From contig BCJC01000009.1 of assembly GCA_001600175.1 (NCBI GenBank), positions 124,001 to 188,000 on the forward strand: DNA of 64,000 nucleotides, read 5' to 3'. The translations under genes and the position numbers were made by a program. The DNA is from Erythrobasidium yunnanense. Taxonomy: Eukaryota; Basidiomycota; Cystobasidiomycetes; Erythrobasidiales; Erythrobasidiaceae. Below the pieces are notes generated by a model that saw nothing but the letters and a program-made list of their open reading frames with translations, was not told where the DNA came from and ran no database searches. This document shows positions 12,182 to 61,711 of the stretch, piece after piece (position 1 is the first letter of the stretch; every line of letters starts with the position of its first letter).

Positions 12182-13113
12182 TCAACCGATTGAAGCCTGC
12201 ACCAACGCATCGGTAAGAACGCCAAACCCAGTCTGTCGTGATTCTGCTTGTCGCTCATCAAACGCAACAGCTAGGGCAGCTATCAGAGCCAGATCGACGC
12301 CGGGTACGACCTGAAGGAAATATACATGACATTCAGCACGAATGAGTGATATGGAATGATCGGAATGGATGTTTGCAACATACGTGAACGAAGTAGTCTC
12401 TGACCTCATGCTTCTGCTTGAAGAGCTTCCATCTCCTGCCTTGTTCTCCTGAGAATGTTGCCAGAACAGCGCCCGTCTGGACGAGTCTCATCTGTGCATT
12501 TCTGTCTTCGCTGTTTCCTTGAATGCTGACTTCGAGCGGAACTCCATCTGCTCTATTTTCAAATTTGATGCTCATCTTGATCTTTGCGACTATCAACAAA
12601 GGGCGATTAGATATGTGAAGGTGTAGCTGCAACCAGAGTTGCCTACATTTGTATTTGCCATCGATATCAACGAGAAGGGAACCATCTGGCCCGACAATCT
12701 CATGCGAACCAAGCGTGCTGAAGGCTTTCTTCTTCAGGGTGAAGAGCGGCTGACCAGCGGCATCGGTGAAATCTAAAGAGAGTAGAGCAGGATCGTTCAT
12801 CCACTACGCCTGTATACCGTAAGAGCAGGCCTGTCTCACCTTTCTGCTCGGAGTAGCTGCGAGCTTTACCAGATACGTTGCAGACGACTGCTCCCTGAGA
12901 ATCTCGGACACTACGCATACCAAGAGCTGTTCAGCCAGAGGCAAACGCCAGTATCTAGACGAAAGGGAAGTCGACAACGCACGCAAATCGCGATCCGGAA
13001 ACTTTGCTCTTATGCGTGTACTCTTGGATTACCAAAGTAACGGGGTTTGGAACCGCGTACTGTGGGAAGATCCCGACCGCAGGCGGCGCGTTATTGTACT
13101 GAGCTTGGTTCAT
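12182..13113 (-). CDS. LURP-one-like protein, paralog B
   Basis: The start is ATG 13113 (MNQAQYNNAPPAVG). Exon 1 ends at 12983, and four more exons end in an extended tail (VVPGVDLALIAALAVAFDER, then about 22 extra residues) with the stop at 12182. Core motifs are GIFPQYAVPNPVTLVIQE near the start, RDSQGAVVCNVSGKA, LGSHEIVGPDGSLL, FENRADGVPLEVSIQG, and a C-terminal hydrophobic helix ALIAALAVAF. These fit the LURP-one/Tubby C-terminal barrel; plant members act in defence, and fungal members are uncharacterised. All exons are open, so this copy looks functional. Intron positions and phases match copies A and C, which shows common descent. Confidence 0.8.
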
Positions 13114-13715: not shown

Positions 13716-14586
13716 TCAGCCCACAGCGACAACAGGCTGGCGCATCTCCAGCTGTCTCTCATCGAATGCCACAGCCAGAGCTGCGATGAGAGCCAAGTCG
13801 ACGCCCGGAGCGACCTATTTCCGCGCCCTCAGCGGGACCATCGCACATGTAAAGAGCCGAAATGTGCATACCTGAACGAAGTAGTCTGTATCGGCAGGCT
13901 TGAAGAGCTTCCATGGACTGCCATGTGCTCCTGAAAGAGTCGCTAGCACGCTGCCCGTTTGCTCAAGGACCATCTTTGCGTCTCTCTTCTTGTAGTTCCC
14001 CGTAATGAGGATTTCGAGAGGGACTCCGTCTGCTTTGTTGGTGAATTTGACTTTCATCTTGATGCTCGCGACTGCAATAGCAGCTTTCAGAAGCGAGAAG
14101 CGTAGGTAGACGCAAAGTGACGGCTTACATTTCCACTTGCCACCAATGTCACACAGCAGCGAACCATCTGGACTAAGAATTTCATGCGAGCCAAGCAGGC
14201 TCAATGACTTCTTCTTGATAGTGAAGAGAGGCTGGCCCTGTACATCCGTAAAGACTGGCGAGGAAAGCATGAGCCGTTGCGAGATGGTACTTATCATTTG
14301 CAGCCGATCTGCCTAACTCACCTTTCTGCCCAGAGTAGCTTAGCGACTTGCCAGATACGTTGCAAACGACAACTCCTTCTGTGTCTCGGATTCTGTATAT
14401 GCACGCCCGTCAGCGAAGAAGCCAAAAACAGCCAGGAAAGCTGAATGCGCACGCAAAGTCTGGACCGCTATATTTGTCTTTATGTGTGGCTTCTTGGATA
14501 ACCAATGTGACTGGCTTTGGTACCGCATACTGAGGGAAGATGCCAACTGCTACTGGCGACTTTTCGTCCTGAACCTGCTGCATCAT
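13716..14586 (-). CDS. LURP-one-like protein, paralog C
   Basis: ATG 14586 (followed by a second ATG) opens exon 1, 14586-14453. Introns lie at the same phases as in paralogs A and B. The protein runs MMQQVQDEKSPVAVGIFPQYA, then RDTEGVVVCNVSGK, then LGSHEILSPDGSLLCDIGG, then FTNKADGVPLEILITGN, then a tail with the ALIAALAVAFDER helix, about 200 residues in all. The family is LURP-one-like (PF04525), a Tubby-type barrel that may bind membrane lipid, with a C-terminal hydrophobic helix at its core. It is intact. It lies furthest upstream on the minus strand, and its own promoter shows little of the duplicated block seen before A and B. Confidence 0.8.
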
Positions 14587-29455: not shown

Positions 29456-31425
29456 CTATAGAGTGACTGTCTGCTTCGACGACTCATCCCCACCCGTTTG
29501 ACCAGCTGTAATCGTGACCTTCTCGTCCTTGTCAACGATGACTTCGATTTGGACCGAGCTGTCCTTGCCAGAAGAAGTGACAGGGACGACCAATTCCGCC
29601 AATTGCGTTGTAGCTTTTACGTATTTTGTTCTAGTCTCCTCCTCTTCATCCTCCTCTTCACTGTCATCATCGTCGTTCGAGGCCTTCTTGCCGTTCGTAG
29701 CAGGAGGAGCTTGGACGTGGATCGCCTCTTCACCTTCCGCAAGGACGATCTTTGCGGCTTTTGACGAGGAAGAGACGGGTAGGCTGACGATTCTCCTTGC
29801 GGGCAGAGGTGTTGAGCTCTCCAAGATGGTGACAAATGTCTTTCCATCTACAACTCCTGGGTTCTCTGCATTGTCGGGCGAAGAAGGAGCTGGGACGAGC
29901 AAGCCGATAGGTTTCGTAAGAACCTTGACTTGTTGAGGCGCTAGTGAAGATTTGGAGTCGACAGCTTCGGAAGAAGGGGAAGTAGAGGAGAGAGCCTGTG
30001 CTTGCAGAACACAGCCGCGTGCAATCACTTGATCCGGCTCGATTTGCGAGGAGACGAGCGTCGTCTCGGGGAAGATGGCGCCAATCCTGTCTGCCAACGT
30101 GGGGTTCTTGCTTGTTCCTCCGACAAGGATGACTTCGTGGATCTGCAGAGGGTCTAGCTTCGCTTGTTCCAACGCCTCGCGAATCTTGTCTCCTATCTGG
30201 CTGTAGACCTTTCCGCTCAATAGATCAAAGCGGCTTCTGTTGACGCTGGAAGAAAAGTCGATGCCGTCGACGAGCGATTCTACGGAGCATGTTGCGGAGG
30301 TGCTGGCGGATAGCGAACGCTTGACTACCTCGCACGACAGGCGCAGCTTCATGTTTGCGCGGTGATTCTCCTTGATATCCAGCTTGACGCCCTTGTTCTT
30401 CTTGGTGAACTCCTTTACGAAGTGCTCAACCAAGTTCTGGTCCAAGTTGTTTCCACCTAGATTCGTGTCGCGTACAGTCGAGAGAGGAACATACAGGCCT
30501 TGTCTTGCGGCTAGGACAGTAGCAGTCGTCGAAGATGCACCAACGTCGAGCACGACGACGTTGCGGTCTTGGCTTGCAGGAGAAGCGCCAGCAGCGGTAG
30601 AAGTGGAGGGAGATGTGGTGGAAGTCAGGCCATAAGCCAGACACGCTGCAGCGGGCTCATTCAAGAACTGCAAGACCCGTACGCCAGCAGCATCTTTGCA
30701 TGCTTTCGCGAGAGCATCCAGCTGCGCTTTTGAGAAATTCGAAGGGACGCCAACGACTGCTGCGTCTATTTTCCTGCCTAAGAAGTCTGATGCGAATCCA
30801 ATGAGAGTGGTGAGGTATTTCACTGCAGCGTCGTGGGCGGTAAGAGTCGTTTCAGAGTCGTTTATGGAAACGGTGTATGCAGGGGAAGAGCCGTCTTTTG
30901 CAGCGACAACGGCCGCCGAGCCGTAAGGTGCTTCGAATGACTTGACCTCGTCGTATCTGATACACTAAAGCATTAGTATGTGCGAGCGTGGTGCATTCGG
31001 TCGCTATGGATCCAAATTTTGCGATTTTGCGGACGTAAACAACTCACGTCTTTCCGAGGACGGTAGTGAAGCTTAGGATAGTGTTCTTGCTATTCCTCAC
31101 GAGCTGACTCTTTGCGGGAATACCAATGTACTGTGGATCATCGAGAATATGGATTTTGGTCAGATTTGTTGCGCCAAAGATACAGATCTCGGTCCAGCCA
31201 AGGCCAAGTTAGCACACCTCTTCATCGCCAGAGAATGATAGAGCATTTGCGATCTGCCTCTCGCCGTCGTCGTTTGCGATGCAGTCTGGCAATCCGTCCT
31301 AGTTGGCATTTTCAGCTGAATTCTTCTAAGTCTTTTTCCTTGCAGTGGGATGAGGGCGCTACCTTGCTGATAACTGCGACTGACGAGGCTGCTCCTCCCA
31401 GGTTTATACCGAGGACTGTAGGCAT
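29456..31425 (-). CDS. ssz1: Hsp70-like Ssz1 of the ribosome-associated complex
   Basis: ATG 31425 begins MPTVLGINLGGAASSVAVIS, the Hsp70 phosphate-1 region with changes (GINLGG for GIDLGT). Two or three short exons follow, then one long exon 30900-29456. Visible blocks: AAVVGVPSNFSKAQ, VLQFLNEPAAACLAYG (with the Ssz-typical change from INEPTAA), VVVLDVGASSTTATV, LGGNNLDQNLVEHF, and VILVGGTSKNPTLADRI. The peptide-binding domain is short and ends in an acidic loop and a beta-like tail. This is Ssz1 (Pdr13), which pairs with zuotin at the ribosome exit and binds ATP with little or no hydrolysis. Length and missing lid match the family. Confidence 0.88.
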
Positions 31426-41506: not shown

Positions 41507-41932
41507 TCAGACTAGTCTTTCAGGCGTCGTCGATGTCGCTGGCAATTCCTGGCTGGAAGATGACTGCATATTCATATTCCGCCTATCTCTTCTCGCTAAT
41601 CGTTCCTCTTTGAGTTTTGCCAGTTGCTGCTTGAGCTCGCTCTCCGTTTCAGACAGTTTCTGCGTAATCCTCGTCAGGACATGCATTTGATCTAGATCTT
41701 TGCGCGCACAATGTCTGCTTTTTCAGGCTGCAAGTAGGCATCTCGTAGGGGGTAGATGTACTGCAGAAGCACCACCGTAAAAGCATCAGCTTGATTCCAA
41801 GTGATGCAGGATGGTCGGGCGTGAGTTATTCACCTTGTTGTACCAGTCTGGGTCGCCGTAGTGAGCCATGATCAAGATGGGGAAGAAGACATACATCCCA
41901 AACCGAAACAACTCGAGCTTCGGACCGGCCAT
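41507..41932 (-). CDS. pet100: Cytochrome c oxidase assembly protein Pet100
   Basis: Three short exons, none long enough to stand out alone. Exon 1 from 41932 gives MAGPKLELFRFGMYVFFPIL, the Pet100 start (K-L-E-x-F-R plus one membrane helix), and DPDWYNK. Exon 2 gives YIYPLRDAYLQPEKADI. A 50-base intron (GTGCGC..ACGCAG with a CTGAC branch) leads to KLSETESELKQQLAKLKEER and a polar end at 41507. Human PET100 has the same order: membrane helix, PPEK, then a Glu/Lys/Arg helix. It acts in the mitochondrial inner membrane in complex IV assembly. About 100 residues, as usual. Confidence 0.82.
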
Positions 41933-42350: not shown

Positions 42351-43157
42351 ATGTCTCGACCATCCAGCTCCCATACTCCCATCAAGGTCAGCTATGCCGA
42401 CGACAGCAACTGCCAGCTCAGATATTCATACAACGACCCGCTTATCAACGACAACGACTACTATATGGCTCGACGATACGACGCTCGAGTAGTCTATATT
42501 GTCGAATCTCAGTACACCTGCCAAGCTCTCCTCGAATGGGACAGCAGACGAGCTCGTCTCGATCGCAAGGTTTTCGGTCCCAAAAGCAAGTATCATCTTC
42601 CTCAGGGAGACAGGGGAGACTGGCGACCTGTCGCTGTCTGGAGTCTCATTCTCGTATACCACATGGCGGCCCATCCCAAGGTCGACTTCGACTTGGGCGC
42701 CGTCCCTCATCTCTGTGTGGATGAAGAAAACAGATGCATCTGGGCACCACAACCTTTTACACGCATCGTACCAGCCAAAGATATAGTCATTCTCACGGCT
42801 CCTCCTACTACTAGGACGACGACTTACAATAAACGTCCTATCACCATCTACAAAGCTATCATACCCTCTCGAGAATGGCGCACTGGCCGTTCTGGCTTCA
42901 AACAAGACAACAACTCGATGATCGTTATAGACGATAAGCCGTACCTGGGCAGATACACCGAGTCACAAGCTTTTCCCGTAGTCAGAACAGCCTCGGGCAG
43001 GACGACGACTGCCTCACATGGCAGGAATATCATAGGGAACAATCCCACACCTCCGTTACGCGCACGATTAAGATTGGGAAAACACGCTCGAAAAGAGAGG
43101 AGAGGAGAGGTGCAGGCGGGTGAGGATAGCAATATCCGAACTTCTAGAAGCGACTGA
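42351..43157 (+). CDS. Array member 1 (type I)
   Basis: ATG 42351 (MSRPSSSHTPIKVSYADDSN), 268 residues. Core reads YSYNDPLI, VYIVESQYTCQALLEWDSRR, ARLDRK, KYHLPQ, then IWAPQPFTRIVPAKDIVIL and IYKAIIPSREW. The tail is Arg/Gly-rich. It is nearest in sequence to member 2, and the two also share 5' flank. No function can be assigned. Confidence 0.78.
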   Translation: MSRPSSSHTPIKVSYADDSNCQLRYSYNDPLINDNDYYMARRYDARVVYIVESQYTCQALLEWDSRRARLDRKVFGPKSKYHLPQGDRGDWRPVAVWSLILVYHMAAHPKVDFDLGAVPHLCVDEENRCIWAPQPFTRIVPAKDIVILTAPPTTRTTTYNKRPITIYKAIIPSREWRTGRSGFKQDNNSMIVIDDKPYLGRYTESQAFPVVRTASGRTTTASHGRNIIGNNPTPPLRARLRLGKHARKERRGEVQAGEDSNIRTSRSD

Positions 43158-43361
43158 GGAGCAGTGGCAAGCGTCTCGGCTCCTAGTCGCTGCAACGTCA
43201 GTTTCCATCATATCCCGTCCAGCTCGAAAGAAATTTCCTTGGTTTGCTTCGACGAGCATTCGGGTTTATCAGCACCTCTTCGATGGTATTGGGCAGCTCA
43301 CACACTCCCCGTGCGCGTCAGTGTACCATCTCGCGTTCTGCCACTCCACTCCACTCCATGC

Positions 43362-43440
43362 AGCCTTTCAAGCGACCTTTCGATGCTGGTCCCCCTTCTA
43401 AGTTTTCGGCCCTTTGGCATCTGGCCAAATCGCCATGTTC
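43362..43440. repeat. Array upstream block, copy before member 2
   Basis: Counterpart of 42124-42200. The duplicated unit therefore reaches at least 200 bases upstream of the coding start. Confidence 0.7.
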
Positions 43441-43626
43441 AACGTTCACGTCTCCTGGCCAAGGCTTTCTCTCGTACCTCACACGCTATCTCGCATCGAT
43501 CATCAAGCCATTGAACTGGCTCACAGATCGCACAACGCCTAATACGCAACTTCACAAACATCAGCTCCCTTCACTGCACTGCTCTGCTCAGTCTACCAAG
43601 TCTGAGCTCGGAAAAAAGGACCAAAC

Positions 43627-44418
43627 ATGCCTCAAGCAACCAACTCGAATTGCCCTGTCAAAGTCAGCTATGCCGACGACAGCAACTGCCAGCTCAAGTA
43701 CTCCTATAACGATGCAACCATCAATCAGGACTTCTACATTACCCGCAGGTACGATTCACGTGTGTACATCATCGAATCCCAGTACAGTCTTGAAACTCTT
43801 CTCGAATGGGACAGCAGACGCGCTCGTCTCGATCGCAAACTGCGAGGCAAAAGTAGCCGCTATTGGCTTCCACGCGGCCCCAAAGCAGAAGAGTGGAGAC
43901 CTATCGACTTGTTCACTCTAAACAAGGTACAATCCCTGGCCCTGCGGGAGAAAGGTATTGGTAATTCGTGGTCCAGGCTCCGTCTTGGGATAGACGATAT
44001 CGAGCGTACCATATGGGTCAAACAGCCATTTACGCGAATCCAACCCGCAAAAGACATCGTCTTCATTCTCAACACACGTGAATTTAACCCAAAATATGGA
44101 ATCATCGATACATACAAAGCCATCATGCCATTGCAAGAGTGGCTCACGAATGCACCCAGCAAACATGGATACGTGTACGCTCAGGAACTAGTGGCCGATA
44201 AGAAAGACGGCTACGGTGGTGGATATAGAGAGACGGTAGCTTGGTCGAAAACTTGGCTGGAGAAGGAAGCAGCACGCACAGGCAGCATTGTTTGGAGTAG
44301 GATACTTGCGGGACGACCCTTGTCTCGATCAATACCCGGTAGCGACGCCGGCGGACACTGTAAGATTGGCAAGTCTGCGACGCATACTTCCAGCTCCAGC
44401 TCCAGCTCCGGCTTCTGA
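43627..44418 (+). CDS. Array member 2 (type I)
   Basis: ATG 43627 (MPQATNSNCPVKVSYADDSN), 263 residues. Core: YSYNDATI, VYIIESQYSLETLLEWDSRR, ARLDRK, YWLPRG, IWVKQPFTRIQPAKDIVFIL, TYKAIMPLQEW. The start VKVSYADDSNCQL is nearly the same as in member 1, while the middle third is quite different. The tail ends in eight serines encoded by a TCCAGC repeat. Confidence 0.78.
   Translation: MPQATNSNCPVKVSYADDSNCQLKYSYNDATINQDFYITRRYDSRVYIIESQYSLETLLEWDSRRARLDRKLRGKSSRYWLPRGPKAEEWRPIDLFTLNKVQSLALREKGIGNSWSRLRLGIDDIERTIWVKQPFTRIQPAKDIVFILNTREFNPKYGIIDTYKAIMPLQEWLTNAPSKHGYVYAQELVADKKDGYGGGYRETVAWSKTWLEKEAARTGSIVWSRILAGRPLSRSIPGSDAGGHCKIGKSATHTSSSSSSSGF
44388..44414. repeat. (TCCAGC)n coding microsatellite
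   Basis: Four units encode the poly-Ser tail of member 2. Confidence 0.85.
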
Positions 44419-44883
44419 AATGCGTTCCCAGAAGTCATTTCAACAAGGTATTTGGCACATCCCACCCCACTCCCGCAATCTGTGTTCAGAGGATACTCCA
44501 TACCAAAACCCTAGAATGGATACTTTCTGCGTCGTTTCCAGTCTGCATGCTCATGCTTCGGTCACACTACCCACACAATCCACCTGGTCGTCTATATGAT
44601 ACATGTCTGCATCCTCAGTCCTGGCACCAGAGATCGTCATGGCTGAAATGCAAGTCTAAACCCCCTTGAATGGCTTCCTTTCAAGCAAGACCCATTCAAT
44701 CATAAGCCCAACTATCGGCTACAGCCTCTTCAACGGATTGTAAGCAGCTGGAGATGATAATGCGAGCGCGCCTCAGCTAGCTCGACGTCCGGCTGTCACG
44801 ACACGGTAGCAGAAACAATTGGGTCGCATCAACAACAGCCAGCGACAGTATCGGTCACAGACAGCAGTCCATCCACCAACGTC
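44419..44883. other. Spacer between members 2 and 3
   Basis: No open frame with family motifs. Promoter and 3' flank. Confidence 0.4.
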
Positions 44884-45655
44884 ATGCCCCGCCGCCTCCT
44901 CGACAAGCTGCGAGCCAAGCCACTCACCACCTCTGCCTCAACTCCTCCGCCTGCTGCACATGCAGCTGACAAAGTCAGCATCCTAGACGATGACAACTAC
45001 AAGCATTCGTATTTCTTCAACGACCCTACAGTGAGCGACATGATCTACTCGACCGTCACCCCCTTTGTCAAAAGTCTACATTATCGAATCGCGCTACAGC
45101 GTCGATTCGCTCCGAGAATGGGGTAGCAGGTACGCTCGTTGGGACCGCAAACGACACCCTAAAGGAGATGGGATGTATGCACTTCCGCGTGGTCAAAAGG
45201 CAGGGTACAAACCTATTGATGCCGTATTCCAAGCGAATGTACGAGACGTCGGAAAGAGACACTTTGAGAAGCAGATCCTTCCTGGCTTTCATGTAGATCG
45301 CAAGAATAACAAGATATGGACTACCCTACCGGAAACAAGGATCATTCCCGTGAAGGAGGTCGTCCTCGTATACACTCAACCGGCACTCAACATGCTCTAT
45401 GGCCCACGGAGGATCAGAGCTATCATATCGCGGGCAGACTGGATCGCGGCAAGGCATGATTTCAAGCTACTTTCAGAGGAGGACGAAATTATCGAAAGCA
45501 AGAAAGCATCGTGGATAGACGGACTCGCTGTTCCGAAGCCGCAGCTGTCGCCATCCGGTGCGAGACGAAGTAATTTTGCAAAGAGTATCACGTCGAGCTC
45601 GTCGAACGATACGATGAAAACTGCACGAACATCTTTCACACATAGGAGTTCATGA
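44884..45655 (+). pseudogene. Array member 3 (type I), one frame break
   Basis: ATG 44884 (MPRRLLDKLRAKPLTTSAST) runs through KVSILDDDNYKHSYFFNDPT. Near 45060, at a run of five C, the frame shifts. From 45065 the +1-shifted frame gives SKVYIIESRYSVDSLREWGS, ARWDRKRH, IWTTLPETRIIPVKEVVLVY and IRAIISRADW to 45655. A single one-base change accounts for it. It is either a decayed copy or a base-calling slip in the C run. Confidence 0.6.
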
Positions 45656-46105
45656 TAGCCTCGGGGGAGATCGAAATATGCGACGAGCTAGAGGTCGCGC
45701 AAAGGTCCTTGATCTTCACCATGAGCTCGTGGATGTTCACCGTGAGCTCGTCAACTGGACACCTTGCACGCTGCACACCTCTATGCCCCAAGCAAGGACA
45801 AGCAATCACACCCTTTCCGCTGGCACCTTACGCGGCCTGAAAGGGGGCAATCTAGAAAGGAGCCTGGCGAGAGGCTGGGGCAGCAGACTGGCCGCTCGCT
45901 GACAGCTGGTCTAGCACTCTTTTCTTGAAATAAGTACAACGACAGCTGCTTCCTTAGGTCATACGAGGCATTCAGTGAAGTAAGTCTGCGCAACTCATGG
46001 CTAATCTGCGGCTCGAGCTTGGGTACGGTGTGGTCTGACTCATCTCATCTCCATCCTCAGCAACTCGCATCTTGTCCACCGCTCATCTAGTCATCAGACT
46101 CAACT
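45656..46105. other. Spacer between members 3 and 4
   Basis: Includes a short direct repeat near 45715-45755 (TTCACC.TGAGCTCGT twice). No gene. Confidence 0.45.
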
Positions 46106-46760
46106 ATGCTTACCTCACTACGAAAGAGGGCGATAACTTCCAAGACGCCTGTCTCGTATGCAACTCAGCAAGACAAGTACGAATACAGGCACGACCCGCA
46201 GGTAAAGTTGTTGGCAAGGGAGGGCGGCGAGGAAATGTATGGCGCATGTTACGTCGTCGAGTCTTGCTACAGCCGCGACACCTTGCAGGAGTGGGAAGGC
46301 AGCCATCCACGCCTTCGACAGAAGCTGCACATGAAATCAAAGTATACGCTGCCGGCACCTGGACCTTATCAAGTCATCGATGTCTTGTTTTCGTTCCGAA
46401 GTCACCCGGCTCGTCGAAGCTGGCCATGGTCCCTATGGCTTGGCCAGAGACATAAAGGACGGACGTCCCTACACGACTTATCCGGGGGTCAAGTTCATCC
46501 TAATAAATGGTGCTTCAACATATCGCGGAACAAGTCCCGATAAGCCTTACAGGAAGTTCATCAAAGCAGTATTCTCGCTCGCTCCTCTAGCTCAAGAAAT
46601 GAAGTTGCCTGCCTGGGTAGATGACCGCTTGGCTGCAGCTGGACTCATCGGATTAGCTCTGCACAGCGGCGGTCAGGCCTCTGATGGCGCTGTCAGAAAC
46701 AGGAGTGCATCATCTGGAGAAAGTACGAAGATGGCGTCACGCAAGGGATCTTCTGCTTGA
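46106..46760 (+). pseudogene. Array member 4 (type II), one frame break
   Basis: ATG 46106 (MLTSLRKRAITSKTPVSYAT) gives CYVVESCYSRDTLQEWEGSH, RLRQKLHMKSKYTLP and PYQVIDVLFSF. Near 46390-46400 the frame shifts; the continuing frame reads PYGLARD, TYPGVKFILING, FIKAVF and a tail STKMASRKGSSA ending at 46760. One single-base change would account for it. Type II features (PYGL, TYPGV) link it with members 8 and 9. Confidence 0.6.
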
Positions 46761-47201
46761 GCGCAGAGTTGAGATTGCAGGGCAACCCATGAATGTCATA
46801 AGCTAGCATAAGATGGGGAAGCGGTCTGACAGCCTCAGGCTGCCTCGAAGTAACCCAAGCCCAAAAGACGACTCTTCGCTTCAATTTCATCGAAGTAGTG
46901 TACAGTACATCTGTGCACGGGAATCGCCACTCGTGTCACAGCGCCCAATTTGCAGCACATGCGTGTCGCGTGTACTCGTCAAGGCAAGATTCCCTTTGAT
47001 CCACAGTCAACGCATCCTTTCATCAATCAACATGTAAATAATGGCTCACCCAAAGTCTACTCGACCGGCTGGTCTCCCTGTTCTCCTCGTTACAAACCTC
47101 AATTGCTGACTTGCAACGCGTCCGCTCAAGCCAGCCGCCATCCACAGCAATCCGAGTCAAGCACACTTCAGCTCCTGGTCAAAGCATTGTGGTACCGAAT
47201 C
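46761..47201. other. Spacer between members 4 and 5
   Basis: An open frame continues upstream of member 5 from 46950, but the family core begins only after 47202. No separate gene seen. Confidence 0.4.
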
Positions 47202-47783
47202 ATGCTTCGTCGAAGTAAGCCGACTGTCACCGCGCCCATCACCGTCAGCACTCGAGACGAGAGCAACTGCCGAATCGATTACGAGTACAAGGATCCCTCC
47301 TGCGACCCCGCCATATACACGACCATCATCGCTCCAGGCTCGCGATCGTACGTCATAGAGTCTAGGTACAGCGTCGAAGCTCTCGCCAAATGGGATAGCA
47401 AGCACGCTCGACTCCATCGCAAGATGTATCCGAATGGGCGTTATGCGCTTCCTCAAAATCCAGGTCCCTACAAGCCTGTAGACGTATTCGAGATCTTCTC
47501 GCTTCGTCGTAGAACAGACGATCCGGAGACGCCGTTCAAGACATACATGCAGCCGCGCATCGCACGGGATGAAAAGGCAAAGACTATCTGGGCACTGCAG
47601 CCTGGTGTGCGCATCATCCCCGTTAAGGACGTGGTCTTGGTCCAGAAAGCCGGCACGGCACCTGAAACCGGACCCAAATACAGAGCTATCATACCCAAGA
47701 AGAAGTTTGCAGCTTGGACAAAAGGATGTACGGGCAAGCTTGAATCTAATGCTGGGATGATGGTAGCGCAGCTGGGATTGTGA
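47202..47783 (+). CDS. Array member 5 (type I)
   Basis: ATG 47202 (MLRRSKPTVTAPITVSTRDE) is preferred over upstream codons because it matches the lengths of other members; 193 residues. Core: YEYKDPS, SYVIESRYSVEALAKWDSKH, ARLHRKMYPNGRYALPQ, YKPVDVF, IWALQPGVRIIPVKDVVLVQ, KYRAIIPKKKF. It is intact and close to member 6 in the VKDVV region. Confidence 0.76.
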   Translation: MLRRSKPTVTAPITVSTRDESNCRIDYEYKDPSCDPAIYTTIIAPGSRSYVIESRYSVEALAKWDSKHARLHRKMYPNGRYALPQNPGPYKPVDVFEIFSLRRRTDDPETPFKTYMQPRIARDEKAKTIWALQPGVRIIPVKDVVLVQKAGTAPETGPKYRAIIPKKKFAAWTKGCTGKLESNAGMMVAQLGL

Positions 47784-48146
47784 CGTTGATTGGAGTAACT
47801 CCGGCTCGCCTATGCACTCGGATTCTGCTTCAGGACGAAAACCTGGATTGGCAGTCACCACGATTACTGTCACTCTTCACTAGCAATGCCTACTGGAAGT
47901 CGCCGACGTGTTATGTCCAAGTCTCCAAGCCTTCCCTTCGAGCTCTTTCGTTGCTTCCTTTGTGGACACCCCTTTTTTCCTAATAAACGATGATACCTTA
48001 TACAGGATCAACCTGCAGCTGTCTCTCTCCACTGCGCAATCCGATAGGCCGTCATCGCACTCAGCCATCCCAAAGAACGGGTTGTGTCTGGTCCAGCGAG
48101 CCTATCCCCAAACCAACCGATCCAAGCCATTTCCGCGCCTATCGTC

Positions 48147-48925
48147 ATGCATAAAGTCAGTACTCTGGACGACAGCAATTGCCAACCTGACTACGAGTAC
48201 AACGACACCTCAATCGACGATGCTATCTATACTATCATCTTTCCGGACTCTAGAATCTATGTTGTCGAGTCGCAGTACAGTCTTCAAGCCCTAGCGGATT
48301 GGGACGCAAAGTACGCTCAGCTCCATCGTAAAGTGAACCCAAAAGGCCGGTATGCCCTGCCCCGCAATCAAGGATCGTTCAAAGTCATCAACATCGTCAC
48401 TCTCGGTGACTTGCGTAAAATTGGCGCGAAGCAATTCCGAAAGGCCAACCGCGTCTAGCTAGGAATAAGGATTACGATATCTGGGCCTTACAGCCGGGCG
48501 TGAGGATTGTGCCTGTTAAGGATGTAGTGATCCTTGAGAGAATCTGTCCTGAACTTCAGGGAGGACCCAGATACAAGGCTGTCATACCTAAGCAAGACTG
48601 GCTGGCAAGAAGGCATGAATTCAAGGGCTGCGAGAAGGTGGACATCCCCGGCGCAAGTCATTGCTACCGGAACTCCGCCTCTGGCCGCGATAGTGGCTGC
48701 CCCAGTAGTGCTGGACGGCTTGCGACTGCGCCAGGAACGTCCTCATCCCCGCCATTATCCGGGTCTGCAGCACGTCGTAACTCTTCGTTGAGTCGAAGTT
48801 CGTGCAATAAGCAGAAAGTTAGAACAACATTGGGCGATAGTGGTCTGGCCGTGCCACCGACGCAGCGCGCTGCGAGCTTCCGCAAGGCATCCTCGGGCAG
48901 CATTAAGCTAGCCACAGGGCAATAG
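48147..48925 (+). pseudogene. Array member 6 (type I), one frame break
   Basis: ATG 48147 (MHKVSTLDDSNCQPDYEYND) runs through VYVVESQYSLQALADWDAKY, LHRKVNPKGRYALP and stops at 48458. A shifted frame picks up at once with DIWALQPGVRIVPVKDVVIL, RYKAVIPKQDW and a Ser/Gly/Arg-rich tail to 48925. A one-base loss near 48450 explains it. The sequence on both sides stays well conserved, so the break is recent or a sequencing artefact. Confidence 0.6.
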
Positions 48926-49184
48926 ATCGGAGCCTCTGGGTCGAGTTTTGGAAGAACGCAGCCAGCGGCATCACATCCTCCGCTGTAGTTCATACTGTGT
49001 TCTTTTCAGATTTTTCCAATGTGCTGCCAATGCGAACCTGCTCGCATCACATTACGATGTCTCCCTTCAAACGAGTCGAGGCAATGCAAGCTCGTCATGA
49101 GCTCCTTGAGCAGCATGCTGCTTGGCTCTCCTCCGCAAACTGTTATAGGCGGTCGATACGATACACAAGCTCTTTCTGCCCGCG

Positions 49185-49757
49185 ATGTCGAATAGCAAGC
49201 CTTCACCTCCACGCACTCGCAAAGCCAAGATCATCTACTCTCTTCCTGTTGTTCTGGACTACGAACACGACGATGGTCTCGTCGATGCCAACGAACGCTT
49301 CATCGCCATCGTTCCTCAAACACAGATGTTCATTATCGAGTCACAGCACAGCCTAGCTGACCTCAAGGCATGGGACAGCAAGCATGCTAGATTGAGCCGA
49401 ACTTTCTCTCCGAGAGGTTCTCGCGAGGTATCTCAAGACGTCAAGCCTTATAGACCTTTAAAGCGAGTCAGTCTACCAAGTCTGCGCCTCCGCACAAGCA
49501 AACACAGCCCCCATCTCCAGCCTCGACTCGTCGTAGACCGACAAAGTAGAAGTTTATGCACACCACAGCCAGGCGTTCGCATCGTTCCTGTCCAGGATGT
49601 GGTCATCGTTGAGCGGCCCTTTCCGGCTCACACGGGAAGAGACCGCTATAAGGCTATTATACCGCAGAAGTACTGGAACGAGAGGAAACATCTGTACCCT
49701 GGGTGCGGGAACGTAATAGTATCTGCTGATAGGCCTGTGGAGCACGTACTCGCATAA
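49185..49757 (+). CDS. Array member 7 (type I, divergent)
   Basis: ATG 49185 (MSNSKPSPPRTRKAKIIYSL), 190 residues. Core: LDYEHDDGLVD (type II-like start), MFIIESQHSLADLKAWDSKH, ARLSRT, PYRPLKRV, then LCTPQPGVRIVPVQDVVIVE (Leu-Cys replaces Ile-Trp) and RYKAIIPQKYW. It mixes a type II start with type I later parts, so it may be a recombinant. It has almost no Ser-rich tail. Confidence 0.76.
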   Translation: MSNSKPSPPRTRKAKIIYSLPVVLDYEHDDGLVDANERFIAIVPQTQMFIIESQHSLADLKAWDSKHARLSRTFSPRGSREVSQDVKPYRPLKRVSLPSLRLRTSKHSPHLQPRLVVDRQSRSLCTPQPGVRIVPVQDVVIVERPFPAHTGRDRYKAIIPQKYWNERKHLYPGCGNVIVSADRPVEHVLA

Positions 49758-50076
49758 CAAGCCAGAGTTGTCAAGCTTCGACCCCGTAAGCTTCGAGCAA
49801 CGCCAGCAACAGAGACGATGACCACAGATGTAGATCTGTACATGTAACTAATGCATTGTGGTACAAGCTTTAACACGAGTCTGTTGGAGAAAAAAAGAAA
49901 ACAGCCCTTGTTTCTTCCTTACATGCGCTTGAAAGGCCTGCCGTCAAGCTAGGCAGAGGACTGGCATGTAACACGACTACTGGGTACGCTTGTGGTGGTC
50001 TCTAGACGACAACGACATACTTTAGCTATCGGAGCTATCGGGATCAATCGCTACACGGTGAGTTCAGCCATACAGC

Positions 50077-50793
50077 ATGGTCTCTCTACTGATTCGAGAG
50101 GCGTCTTTCATGCCGTCAGATCTGGATTATCGCATAGCATCAAGCCGCTCAGTAATCCTCCCAATGAAGTCACCGTTCAAAGTCTCAATGGACAAAACAC
50201 CCAAGTCTAATGTACTCATTCCGGATACGACAGTCGTCAAGCCATACCACTACGACGACGGCCTGATTGATGTTGAGTCCTACGCGGTTGTCAGGAACAT
50301 CGCACCTTGCTATGTTATCGAGTCCCGCTACACTTCCAAAGCACTGCTCGAATACGGACGCGATCAACGTCATGGCCTGAAGAGACTGCGAGGCGGAAGC
50401 AAACCAAAGTACTCTCTACCTGAGCCGGAAGCGTACAGACCTATTGCAATCATTTTTGATTCATGGGTAGACGCCTACCTCACCAAGAAATGGAGACCGC
50501 GTGCATGCGGTGAGATTCCGTATGGCTTAGCCAAAGACAGAGAGGGATTGGTCGTCTCTACTTATCCTGAAACCAGGGTTGTCGTGGTCAGAAACCCTGT
50601 GACAGTAGTACGATCTACGCTGGACCACCCAGACCGCCACAGCATCAAGGCCGTAGTGCAGCAAGAAGTTTTGGCTCAGAAACAAAGCTTGTGGGCAGAT
50701 CAGAGAGCTGCACTTAATGACGAGCATACCCGAAAAGGGAGCGTGGCCTCTCAAGATTCGACAAGGAAGAGCCGTTTTGTCTCCCGAGCGTAG
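50077..50793 (+). CDS. Array member 8 (type II)
   Basis: ATG 50077 opens the frame, but ATG 50164 (MKSPFKVSMDKTPKSNVLIP) fits family length better. Core: YHYDDGLIDVESY, CYVIESRYTSKALLEYGRDQ, LKRLRGGSKPKYSLPEP, YRPIAIIF, PYGLAKDREG, TYPETRVVVVRN, IKAVVQQE. The tail has HTRKGSVASQ. It is intact and most like member 9. Confidence 0.76.
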   Translation: MVSLLIREASFMPSDLDYRIASSRSVILPMKSPFKVSMDKTPKSNVLIPDTTVVKPYHYDDGLIDVESYAVVRNIAPCYVIESRYTSKALLEYGRDQRHGLKRLRGGSKPKYSLPEPEAYRPIAIIFDSWVDAYLTKKWRPRACGEIPYGLAKDREGLVVSTYPETRVVVVRNPVTVVRSTLDHPDRHSIKAVVQQEVLAQKQSLWADQRAALNDEHTRKGSVASQDSTRKSRFVSRA

Positions 50794-51262
50794 CTTTTCT
50801 TTGTCACAAGATTATCTGGAAACCACTGCTTTGGCATAGTAGCGCTGACCTGAGATGGTACAAATGGGAGAGCGCAGGCATTGCTAACCACGATCGCGCC
50901 TCCAATCTCTTCAAGATTCCCTGCCGTTCCCGTCACACTCGCATTCACTTTCCATTCGCAGACATCGTCGCCTACGAGCTGCTAACTGCAGATGCCCAAA
51001 TACAGCCCAGTGGCTCCCGCGACCTTTGTTCGAACTTGACCCGCATATCAAGCGAGGCCAAGAAAGGTCCTTTGACCCAGATCTAGTTGGAGTGCTATCA
51101 CCAGCTGCGTGAGACAGCCCAAGGTCTCTCTCTTACCCACAGTGTTCGAGCCCAAAGTCTGAGCTATCACCCGCATCTGTTGCCTCAGCCACTCATCAAT
51201 CCTAATCTGTCGCTCGAACGCTGGTCATCCATCTTGGCGCTGCAAAAGCATCATCCGCGCCA

Positions 51263-51874
51263 ATGCAGACCCATGCGAAAGAACCTGCTGCGCAGGCAAA
51301 CGTGAGGTTCGATTATGAGTTTGATGATGGACTCATCGACGAACAGCAATACAACTGTACCACGTACCACTCACAATGCCTTGTCATTGAATCCTGCTAT
51401 GACATCAAAACCCTGCAAGAATGGCTGAATGCGCAACCCCGCGTTCTCAGGAGACTACGATCGCAAGGCAGTCCAAACTATGGGCTCCCTCAACCTGGTC
51501 CGTACAGACCTATCGCAGCCTTCATGCCTGGAGAAATCGATCATTACCTTCTAGGTGAGAAGTCGAGATTTGGCCGCAGGTCGGTTCATGCTCCGTATGG
51601 CTTGAGAAGAGGCGCATGTGGACTACTGTATTCGACCTATCCTGGGATCAGAGTTGTACTGACCACCAAGGTCCTCGTGATCACAAGGGCTGTAGGTCAA
51701 CCGCTAGATCGATCCATCATAAAAGCGATCGTCCAGCCAGAAAATTTGGCACTTAAGGAGAAGTTGTGGTCCGCTCAGAGAGCTAATTTGAAAAAGACAA
51801 GCAGAATAAGCGGCAGTACGGCCAGTGGTAGTACTGGTCGGAAGGGGAGTGCAGCAGCTGAACGCAGCGGATGA
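51263..51874 (+). CDS. Array member 9 (type II)
   Basis: ATG 51263 (MQTHAKEPAAQANVRFDYEF), 203 residues. Core: DDGLIDEQQY, CLVIESCYDIKTLQEWLNAQ, VLRRLRSQGSPNYGLPQPG, YRPIAAFM, PYGLRRGACG, TYPGIRVVLTTK, IIKAIVQPE. The tail reads SGSTASGSTGRKGSAAAERSG-like (Gly/Ser repeats with RKGS). It is the last member before SEC62. Confidence 0.77.
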   Translation: MQTHAKEPAAQANVRFDYEFDDGLIDEQQYNCTTYHSQCLVIESCYDIKTLQEWLNAQPRVLRRLRSQGSPNYGLPQPGPYRPIAAFMPGEIDHYLLGEKSRFGRRSVHAPYGLRRGACGLLYSTYPGIRVVLTTKVLVITRAVGQPLDRSIIKAIVQPENLALKEKLWSAQRANLKKTSRISGSTASGSTGRKGSAAAERSG

Positions 51875-52150: not shown

Positions 52151-53231
52151 TTAATCGGACAGCTCTGATATCTGTGCTCCTCTAGATTCTGCAGATGATG
52201 GTCCATTCGGCGCACCGCTTGCTGATGGCGCAACCGCTGTAGAAGTTGCAGAAGTACTCTTTCTCGATTTCTTCTCTTTCCCGCCTGGAGCGCCATCGAC
52301 TGCCTTGCGCTGCGAGGTCCGATGCATCAGTGCCTTTTCCAGTGTCGACGGGTGGGAGAAGGCTTACCTTCTTCTTCTTGGGAGGCGGTAGATCCCAGTC
52401 CCACCCTGGAATGAACGAATCGATCTGTTGCATCGACTCAGTCAGCATAGGCGGTAAGGTAGAGAAGCTTGTAATACGTACAAAGCCAACGTCTGCGAAG
52501 AGATTCGGGAATATCCAGATACCAGGCTTTGCGACCACAATTGTGATCACGTAAAAGATAAGACGGAAGATGGCGAGACCAAAGAAGAGACCGATGACAC
52601 CAAGCATTGCCATACTGAGGTACCATACTGCGATTCTGAGGCTTGTAGGCCACAGAGGGAACATGACGCCGGCCAGGATGACGGCAACAAGACCTATTCC
52701 TCCTAGGACGCTCTTGACTTGTGAGCCTTCCAGTAGCCAGACGTAGTAGTCTTCACTGTTGAAAGCTTGCATCTGATTGACCTGAAGCATCTTGATACTA
52801 GGTCCTTTGGCGCCGCCAGGCCCTGTCGACGTGACGCTCTGTCCGCGGTCTACTTTCAGGTAGAACGCGTGTGGGATGATGCTTCGCAGCAGGGATAAAG
52901 CTTCATCTTCGCTTGTAATCTTGGGGACGCCCTTCTGCTTTGCATAGGCTGGCGTTTGCAGCGCTTTCACAGCGGATTTGCCTGGATTACTTCGCATATT
53001 AGCGAGCCGTTTTGGCAGGTTTCTTGCGCGATGTTATGCACCTCTGAAGTAGTCTACTCTCTTTCCATTCAAGATGCCCGTCTTTGCTTTCAGGCCAGCT
53101 TTGTTTCGCAGCCAATGCACCACTTTCTGGAACTCAGCTTAAAAACGATTTGATGCAAGAAAGTCAGCTAACTTGTGGAAGCTAAATACCACAAATCCCT
53201 TACCTGGCGCTTCCTTCTGCCGCTGCTCCAT
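52151..53231 (-). CDS. sec62: Translocation protein Sec62
   Basis: Five exons from ATG 53231. Exon 1 is MEQRQKEAP; exon 2 FQKVVHWLRNKAGLKAKTGI and VDYFR; exon 3 GKSAVKALQTPAYAK (Sec62 YFxGK.AV.AL signature), LPHAFYLKV-like IIPHAFYLKVDRG, DYYVWLLEGSQ, two membrane helices (VLGGIGLVAVILAGVMFPLW and VWYLSMAMLGVIGLFFGLAI) and PGIWIFPNLFADVGF; exon 4 FIPGWDWDLPPPKKKK; exon 5 a Lys/Ser/Ala-rich tail ending SELSD. Sec62 works with Sec61/Sec63 at the ER membrane in post-translational import. The C-terminal exon is used with a GTAAGC..GCAAG intron after KKKK. Confidence 0.9.
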
Positions 53232-59982: not shown

Positions 59983-60925
59983 GATGGTTCAGACAAACAA
60001 AATAGGAGTTCGAAGTCGAAGCCGCTCTCAGTAGAGAGTTGTCAGGGTATGTTGTTCATGCCAAAATGGTGAAAGCTAGACAGTGTCAATGCAGAGGTAG
60101 GAGAGATTGGCTGCTGAGATCAGCCTGCTCTAAGCCGCTGGCTGCAACGTTTACGTTCGACGAAGAAGATGTCCTGCCGTCTGCCAGTGGCGCCTAATAA
60201 CTTTCGCCTCCACGAACGAGTTGCTGGCTGATTGATGGGCAATCCCTACGCGAGCCGGCCAGCCAGAGCTCGACTATTCGAGTGTGGATAGTTGGTCAAA
60301 GAGCCTTGTCGCGATGAAAGAAAGCCTGAGTGTGGTGACGATGAAGGCGGAGCTCGACTGTTCGACCAAACAGCGGACCATCCGGCGTTTGACGAGCGTA
60401 ATCAGTCCTGTCTTGTCGCAGCCAGACTTCGTCAGCTATTCAGCGATGTGAAGGCACAGGGTCGGATTGCAAAGAAAGCAAAAGATGTGCACAGATGAGC
60501 AGAAGAGAAACCAACTTTTGTGCGTCTTCGGGTTACAAGCGGGAATCATAACGGCTAGGAACGAGAGGACGCGGTGTGCATGCGTCTTTGTCTGGACAAG
60601 CATATTCTCGGCCTTGCAACTGGACTCGTGGTCCCTCTGAACAATCAGACTAGTTGAGCGAGCTGCATCAGACTTTCCTGCATATCTGCCTTCAGCAAAG
60701 TGTGAACATCTGCCATTAGGCAGAACTTGAGCCGTTTAACACACTAGCTGTAACAGAGCCCTATGTGTAGCCTTTCGAATGAAGCCTTTCTTAAGCCTCT
60801 CAATGGGCACCCTCCATGAAAGGGATCCGGACATGTGACGGCTCCAAGTTTTTTGGAAGGCCATTACGGTTGTGTCTGTATTCACGCTGCTTCAAGCGAA
60901 ACGGAAGACAACCAAGAGTTAGACC
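59983..60925. other. Intergenic, 0.9 kb
   Basis: Divergent promoters. An open frame at 60292-60498 lacks motifs and its composition looks non-coding. No RNA gene recognised. Confidence 0.45.
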
Positions 60926-61711
60926 ATGTCTAATCGCGATTACAGAATGAACGCTTCTCCAGCAGGACTCACCCGCACAAGATCGTCCTCTAGCAACAGG
61001 AGCAGTAGCAGCCTTCCAGCACGCCGTAAAAGTGTCGGTAGCCGGCAGCCTCCAAGACCAGCAGGTTCGGCCTCCCAAGCGACCAGAGCACCCGTGCCCA
61101 GCCAGCAGCAGCAGCAAGCACGCGCTTATCCAGCCGGCTCAGCCAAAGTCGTGAGCGTACAGCCTCCCAGAGTCAGCCAGATGAAGCCGGTGCCACCTCC
61201 AGCATCGCATCAGGTGCAGAATGGTCGAAGGCCCTCCCTCAGCGGGATGCGCTCGAATTCTTGCGACGGTACTCATCACCACCACCACCATCACCAGAAC
61301 GGCAATCAACCGCGCAAGCGCCCCGGCTGGACGAGAGATCCCTGTCTAAAGACCTGCGGTATAGGTCTTGTACTGGGTATCGGAGCTTGTTTAGTCACTG
61401 CCGGAGTGGGTACAGCCAAAGCATGCACGCACTGCTGTCGAGGTCCACAGAACAGGAACAAGAACAACACCAAGTCCAATGCATTGATGAATGGTGGGGG
61501 AAGAAACGGTAGAACCGATAAAGATGATCTCTTCCAGGATTGTGCTGATCTGACGAGTGACCTTCTCGATTGCGATGGATGCTGCTCTGGAGACTGCTGC
61601 TTCTGCTGTGGAAGCCCTTCTGGAGGAGGAGACTGCTGCTCCGGCGATTGTTGCGGAGGAGGAGGAGGCGGCAGCTGCGATTGCGGCGGCGGCGGAGGCG
61701 GCTGCCTATAA
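60926..61711 (+). CDS. Cys-rich protein with one membrane helix
   Basis: Single exon, 261 residues, from ATG 60926 (MSNRDYRMNASPAGLTRTRS). The first 130 residues are Ser/Arg/Pro/Gln-rich with a run of seven His. GIGLVLGIGACLVTAGVGTA near residue 145 is a plausible membrane helix with a Gly zipper, flanked by cysteines (CLKTCG before, ACTHCCRG after). The C-terminus is a Gly/Cys sheet: CDGCCSGDCCFCCG, then CCSGDCC, then GGGGGGSCDCGGGGGG and CL. Double-Cys units (CCSGDCC twice) may bind metal or be lipid-modified. No family recognised. It converges with TLG2, stops 36 bases apart. Confidence 0.7.
   Translation: MSNRDYRMNASPAGLTRTRSSSSNRSSSSLPARRKSVGSRQPPRPAGSASQATRAPVPSQQQQQARAYPAGSAKVVSVQPPRVSQMKPVPPPASHQVQNGRRPSLSGMRSNSCDGTHHHHHHHQNGNQPRKRPGWTRDPCLKTCGIGLVLGIGACLVTAGVGTAKACTHCCRGPQNRNKNNTKSNALMNGGGRNGRTDKDDLFQDCADLTSDLLDCDGCCSGDCCFCCGSPSGGGDCCSGDCCGGGGGGSCDCGGGGGGCL
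61273..61295. repeat. CAC/CAT run encoding poly-His
   Basis: Seven consecutive His codons in the gene above. Confidence 0.8.

Follow-up and report, generated by a model that had tools for sequence, protein, structure and literature searches.

Tandem gene arrays in hemiascomycete yeasts are reported to lie mostly on one strand, to contain relics in 11% of arrays, and to reach sizes of up to 16 genes (PMC2822764). The same study records one 16-gene array of Debaryomyces hansenii that is 'without similarity' (PMC2822764). In Schizosaccharomyces pombe, the wtf genes, which are killer meiotic drivers, are reported to vary in copy number between isolates and to undergo repeat changes and nonallelic gene conversion (PMC6526906). 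DUP240 of Saccharomyces cerevisiae is likewise a tandem family that expands, contracts, and leaves relics. Orphan tandem arrays are already known in yeasts; the family described here is itself new. It is located in a window of 64,000 nucleotides, positions 124001-188000 of contig C9 in a 20.9 Mb assembly of 10 contigs, where nine homologous copies (c1 to c9), all on the plus strand, fill the interval between the genes PET100 and SEC62 (approximately 42351-51874). We favor, with rather more than even confidence, the interpretation that this is an old, lineage-restricted tandem family under purifying selection with some copies probably decaying, over that of a young, conflict-driven one, because no near-identical copies are present, nonsynonymous divergence (dN) is below synonymous divergence (dS) in every pair for which dS could be computed, and an anomalous run of identical codons is found in a single pair. 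With relatives known for two of its members, this old orphan array, set between a pair of housekeeping genes, should allow birth-and-death evolution to be told apart from conflict. On present evidence, the array is a good target for annotation more than a surprise.

The nine copies fall into two subfamilies. Subfamily A comprises c1 (42351..43157, intact, 268 residues), c2 (43627..44418, intact, 263 residues, with c1 as its closest paralog), c3 (44884..45655, with one frameshift near 45056-45080), c5 (47202..47783, intact, 193 residues), c6 (48147..48925, with one frameshift near 48431-48465), and the divergent c7 (49185..49757, intact, 190 residues). Subfamily B comprises c4 (46106..46760, with one frameshift near 46376-46400), c8 (50188..50793, intact, 201 residues), and c9 (51263..51874, intact, 203 residues), together with two database proteins, P0001 and P0002. 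The start of c8 is probably at 50188 rather than 50077, because the alignment with P0002 begins there. The array is flanked on the low side by a multi-exon gene on the minus strand (approximately 41507..41932), identified by eye as probably PET100 (start MAGPKLELFRFGMYVFF), and on the high side by the exon region of SEC62 (52182..53033, minus strand), which matches the Pfam Sec62 profile at an E value of 1.5e-45.

Homology among the copies is far above chance, with E values of 7.3e-50 for c2 against c1 and 6e-10 for c5 against c9 in searches of the host's own genome. Four such searches, with c2, c9, P0002, and c5 as queries, each listed 10 places, all inside the array, and no family member outside it was present among the 10 candidates scored in each, a number small enough for a very remote member elsewhere to be missed. 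A tblastn comparison of 13 family sequences with the window gave 115 matches at E<=0.1, six of which overrun the annotated ends of copies by at most 81 nucleotides; at that threshold there was no match outside the array, none on the minus strand, and no relic or tenth copy. These searches, the reading frames, and the SEC62 profile match bear out the preliminary description of the locus as nine same-strand paralogs between PET100 and SEC62. The array resembles those of hemiascomycetes in its same-strand paralogs and its compact fungal genome, but differs from them in that they belong to Ascomycota and mostly hold two genes, and in that other genes break up the 16-gene array at three points (PMC2822764).

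Divergence between the copies was estimated by the Nei–Gojobori method (NG86) for 35 pairs, c4 not among them. In 19 of the 35, dS lies beyond the range of the method, and in the remaining 16 it ranges from 1.73 to 4.47, with dN from 0.51 to 1.05, so that dN is below dS in 16/16 computable pairs. The copies are far apart: c1 and c2 share 108 of 253 residues (dS 2.53) and c8 and c9 share 78 of 196 (dS 1.73). The best identity among the direct repeats of at least 45 nucleotides that were listed is 82%, and no near-identical copies were found. Identical codons are near the expectation from codon usage in most pairs, with an excess (p<0.01) in five of 53 (c1/c5, c1/c3, c2/c5, c2/c3, and c9/c4). 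Signs of gene conversion in this one genome amount to that codon excess and to a single long identical run: c1 and c2, otherwise strongly diverged, share 33 identical nucleotides (11 codons; 42387-42419 in c1 and 43663-43695 in c2), a length reached in none of 2000 simulations, and all other pairs of the 53 gave p>=0.10. The same two copies share a 45-nucleotide upstream block with 82% identity. The identical patch may possibly represent a short gene conversion. Compared with wtf, for which nonallelic gene conversion is reported (PMC6526906), the array copies in this one genome are diverged and show one clear identical patch.

The division into subfamilies is carried by one branch with 100/100 support in each of two trees, one built with the first pieces of the broken copies c4 and c6 and the other with their second pieces, the second piece of c3 being used in both. 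The supported joints beyond this branch are c1+c2 (97/95 and 91/94), c8+P0002 (88/88 and 94/91), and c9+P0001 (100/99 and 99/98). P0001 and P0002 are the only two matches returned, among 4101 candidates, when a query made from six copies was compared with approximately 5.8 billion proteins. A 12-row query returned P0001 alone among 5054 candidates. P0001 is 81% identical to c9 across 203 residues and P0002 is 52% identical to c8. Since c8 and c9 pair with different relatives, the split between these two genes is older than the species split.

The phylogenetic setting of the host was approached through an exon of SSZ1, for which a search that scored 7993 candidates gave 32 matches at E<=1e-100. 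The best, P0003, is 96% identical and lies on a contig of 30,150 nucleotides; the next seven are 54-59% identical, and Phenoliferia, Rhodotorula, Mixia, and others are at 43-47%. In a tree rooted at its midpoint, without an outgroup, the window sequence and P0003-P0010 form a nine-row clade, apart from Mixia and the Microbotryomycetes. By this gene the host is probably Pucciniomycotina-like. Rhodotorula and Mixia, both present in the protein database, gave no family match in a search of limited sensitivity. The longest contig of P0002 is also 30,150 nucleotides, and P0002 therefore probably lies with P0003 on one contig, which would be the locus in a close relative that is syntenic with the array. 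As an observation on the SSZ1 exon itself (29459-30964, minus strand), its best relative is at 96% and the other 31 listed are below 60%, which points to a sparsely sequenced host clade.

The difference between the 52% identity of c8 to P0002 and the 96% identity of SSZ1 to P0003 suggests fast change in some members of the family, which relaxed constraint would explain equally well. Accelerated evolution of c8 was considered, as the branches leading to c8 measure 0.82 and 0.73 in the two trees compared with 0.098 and 0.16 for P0002. In relative-rate tests, c8 was the faster of the two with seven of eight outgroups, and chi-squared values ranged from 0.05 to 9.8 but exceeded 3.84 with only two of the eight, and acceleration is not claimed.

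The preliminary description had inferred birth-and-death evolution under conflict or adaptation. In a conflict-driven family, copies would be born and lost rapidly through self/non-self recognition or a poison-antidote drive. The size of the tandem array, the divergent middles of the copies, three broken members, the low identity of c8 to P0002 beside that of SSZ1, and the identical patch in c1 and c2 are what such a history might leave; however, no recent duplicates were seen in this genome, the rate tests for c8 mostly stay below significance, and the products have neither a strongly hydrophobic stretch nor a known toxin domain. The dN/dS comparison, which had been proposed as a check, gave no sign of conflict, and with no near-identical copies and one identical patch in 53 pairs, positive evidence for conflict was not obtained. 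We regard this explanation as unlikely. The associated claim of birth-and-death evolution holds in part. Three copies have the look of losses, but the strong divergence within every pair leaves no recent birth to be seen.

The apparent losses are c3, c4, and c6. Six of the nine copies have intact frames, and each of these three has a single frame change, placed approximately, a feature that the preliminary description did not include. Frames are open and similar to other copies on both flanks of each break, and the breaks are therefore either recent losses or sequence errors. On the sequence as assembled, c3, c4, and c6 are probably now being lost. That all three breaks were introduced during assembly, and that none of the nine genes is in fact broken, is the less probable alternative. 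The single break per copy, the open and conserved frame on either side, and the homopolymer runs near the breaks of c3 (five C and four A) and c4 (four T) are what errors might produce, but no run longer than three A occurs near that of c6, and the SSZ1 exon of the same assembly, the one gene used for this comparison, is open across 502 codons with its 96% match to P0003. Introns in place of frameshifts were also considered, and GT-AG pairs able to bring the two parts of a copy back into frame were sought by eye. A 53-nucleotide GT...TAG stretch in c6 has this property. Its removal, however, would take out sequence that aligns with coding regions of c3 and c5, and no convincing branch site was seen by eye, so a frameshift was preferred. 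No slippery site for programmed frameshifting was seen by eye, and nothing further was tested in this respect. The wtf family, likewise a multicopy fungal family, also contains broken copies. All six intact copies are uninterrupted and without intron, and P0001 aligns to c9 without gaps, which agrees with the intronless character noted before; for the contrast with an intron-rich region, the gene compared was PET100, which requires at least one intron when read by eye.

The conserved features of the family are few. The motif [IV][IV]ES is present in all nine copies and [IV][IV]ESxY in eight, c7 having IIESQH with H for Y, and a six-frame scan of the whole window gave eight [IV][IV]ESxY matches, as many as there are copies with the motif. 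The other shared marks named in the preliminary description are less general: LxEW occurs in five of the nine copies, and RLxRK and Kx[IV]IP in three each. Eleven columns are invariant in the six intact copies (in c2 numbering M1, Y25, D29, E50, S51, L58, P92, P134, R137, A165, and W172). The products are approximately 190-270 residues long, several with a tail rich in Ser, Lys, and Arg, and the six intact ones have isoelectric points of 9.5-10.1. The highest Kyte-Doolittle mean over 19 residues was 1.26 among 11 sequences (six intact copies and five pieces, the first part of c3 being left out), so that no stretch is strongly hydrophobic, which agrees with the earlier view that there is no membrane helix; the products are probably soluble. 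DUP240 proteins are membrane proteins, in contrast to these, which have no strongly hydrophobic stretch.

Known domains and folds were sought. No match above cut-off was obtained in Pfam, either with seven proteins or again with nine rows, or in NCBIfam with six rows. Rows below their own cut-offs for Glyco_hydro_77 (E 0.11) and mediterrocin (E 0.023) were taken as chance, as were LmuB in PADLOC (12 rows, E 0.023) and phrog_12094 (E 0.026) with four weaker PHROGs (12 rows). By sequence, PDB gave rows at E 0.13, 0.15, and 0.24, which were rejected, and none in a further search. AlphaFold2 models were obtained for c5 (mean predicted local distance difference test score, pLDDT, 77.9; predicted template-modeling score, pTM, 0.77) and c9 (70.9 and 0.64); both show strands, two helices, a strand, a helix, more strands, and a final helix, in that order. 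Neither model had a significant fold match, the top Foldseek rows for c5 being a weak resemblance to the ACT-domain fold (best E 0.16, probability 0.20, template-modeling score 0.25). A literature search aimed at this kind of family found nothing on it, which is not proof of absence. Within these resources and the protein searches, the description of the family as new and without a known domain is upheld. The modeled structure is thus a candidate for an orphan fold, from a clade of basidiomycetes that has been little sequenced. An origin by domestication of part of a mobile element or virus would suit intronless genes outside any known family, but three scans of IMG/VR viral contigs (P0002, P0001, and c2) found no relative, the best PHROGs row is the weak one given above, none of 175 rows in a viral fold comparison reached E<=0.001, and dispersed copies were not found in the four own-genome searches, so this origin is very improbable. 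Genome contigs likewise contained no relative of P0002 or c5 that would indicate a bacterial origin.

What the proteins do can only be guessed. They might be intracellular and bind something negatively charged, nucleic acid for example, and the copies might be specialized by partner or condition, a suggestion to which we give a low probability. Still more speculative, and rated lower again, is a new fold serving one basidiomycete lineage as an intracellular recognition set (for allorecognition or drive), in which A would partner B, and c8 and other fast members would track a changing target. A niche or stress family, with copies specialized for growth conditions and kept by dosage and subfunctionalization, has a better though still minor chance. 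The copies are old and diverged, and cell-wall, conjugation, and stress-response genes are over-represented in the tandem arrays of nine yeasts (PMC2822764). A weak lead in the same direction is the 9-mer CTTTCAAGC, which occurs upstream of c1, c2, c3, and c8 (42129, 43365, and 44678 on the plus strand and 49927 on the minus strand). It is present in four of the nine upstream regions (259-400 nucleotides each), compared with at most three in 100 shuffles, and has five matches in the window, the fifth at 8567, a total reached by one of 100 shuffles. However, the choice of this 9-mer was made post hoc, and of its four upstream sites the two at c1 and c2 are related by descent, so its value as a promoter motif is weak. 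The commonest 6-, 7-, and 8-mers upstream were within the range of 100 shuffles, and TATA[AT]A was not found in the nine upstream regions.

Under the favored reading of an old family held by purifying selection, the copies would have arisen long ago by unequal crossing-over, and c8 and c9, at the least, would already have existed when the host diverged from the nearest relatives detected. The copies would then have parted into two subfamilies, most of them kept by purifying selection, with c3, c4, and c6 probably decaying. Several points weigh against this account. Restriction to one lineage would rest on searches of limited sensitivity: P0002 was not returned by the 12-row query although it was part of it, and the protein search therefore overlooks true relatives. 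As dS is near or beyond saturation, dN below dS does not gauge selection on recent branches, although the excess of identical codons in five of 53 pairs means that saturation is incomplete. That excess and the c1/c2 run make some exchange or DNA-level constraint likely. Finally, errors in the assembly could account for the frame breaks.

Elsewhere in the window, two neighboring open reading frames (ORFs) on the minus strand, 12336-12803 and 13818-14312, are similar by eye and perhaps form a small tandem pair. The second resembles LURP-one-related (LOR) proteins at E 0.00054, below the Pfam cut-off, and the first has no match at E<=0.001. A plus-strand ORF at 60923-61711 ends in a long tail rich in Gly and Cys.

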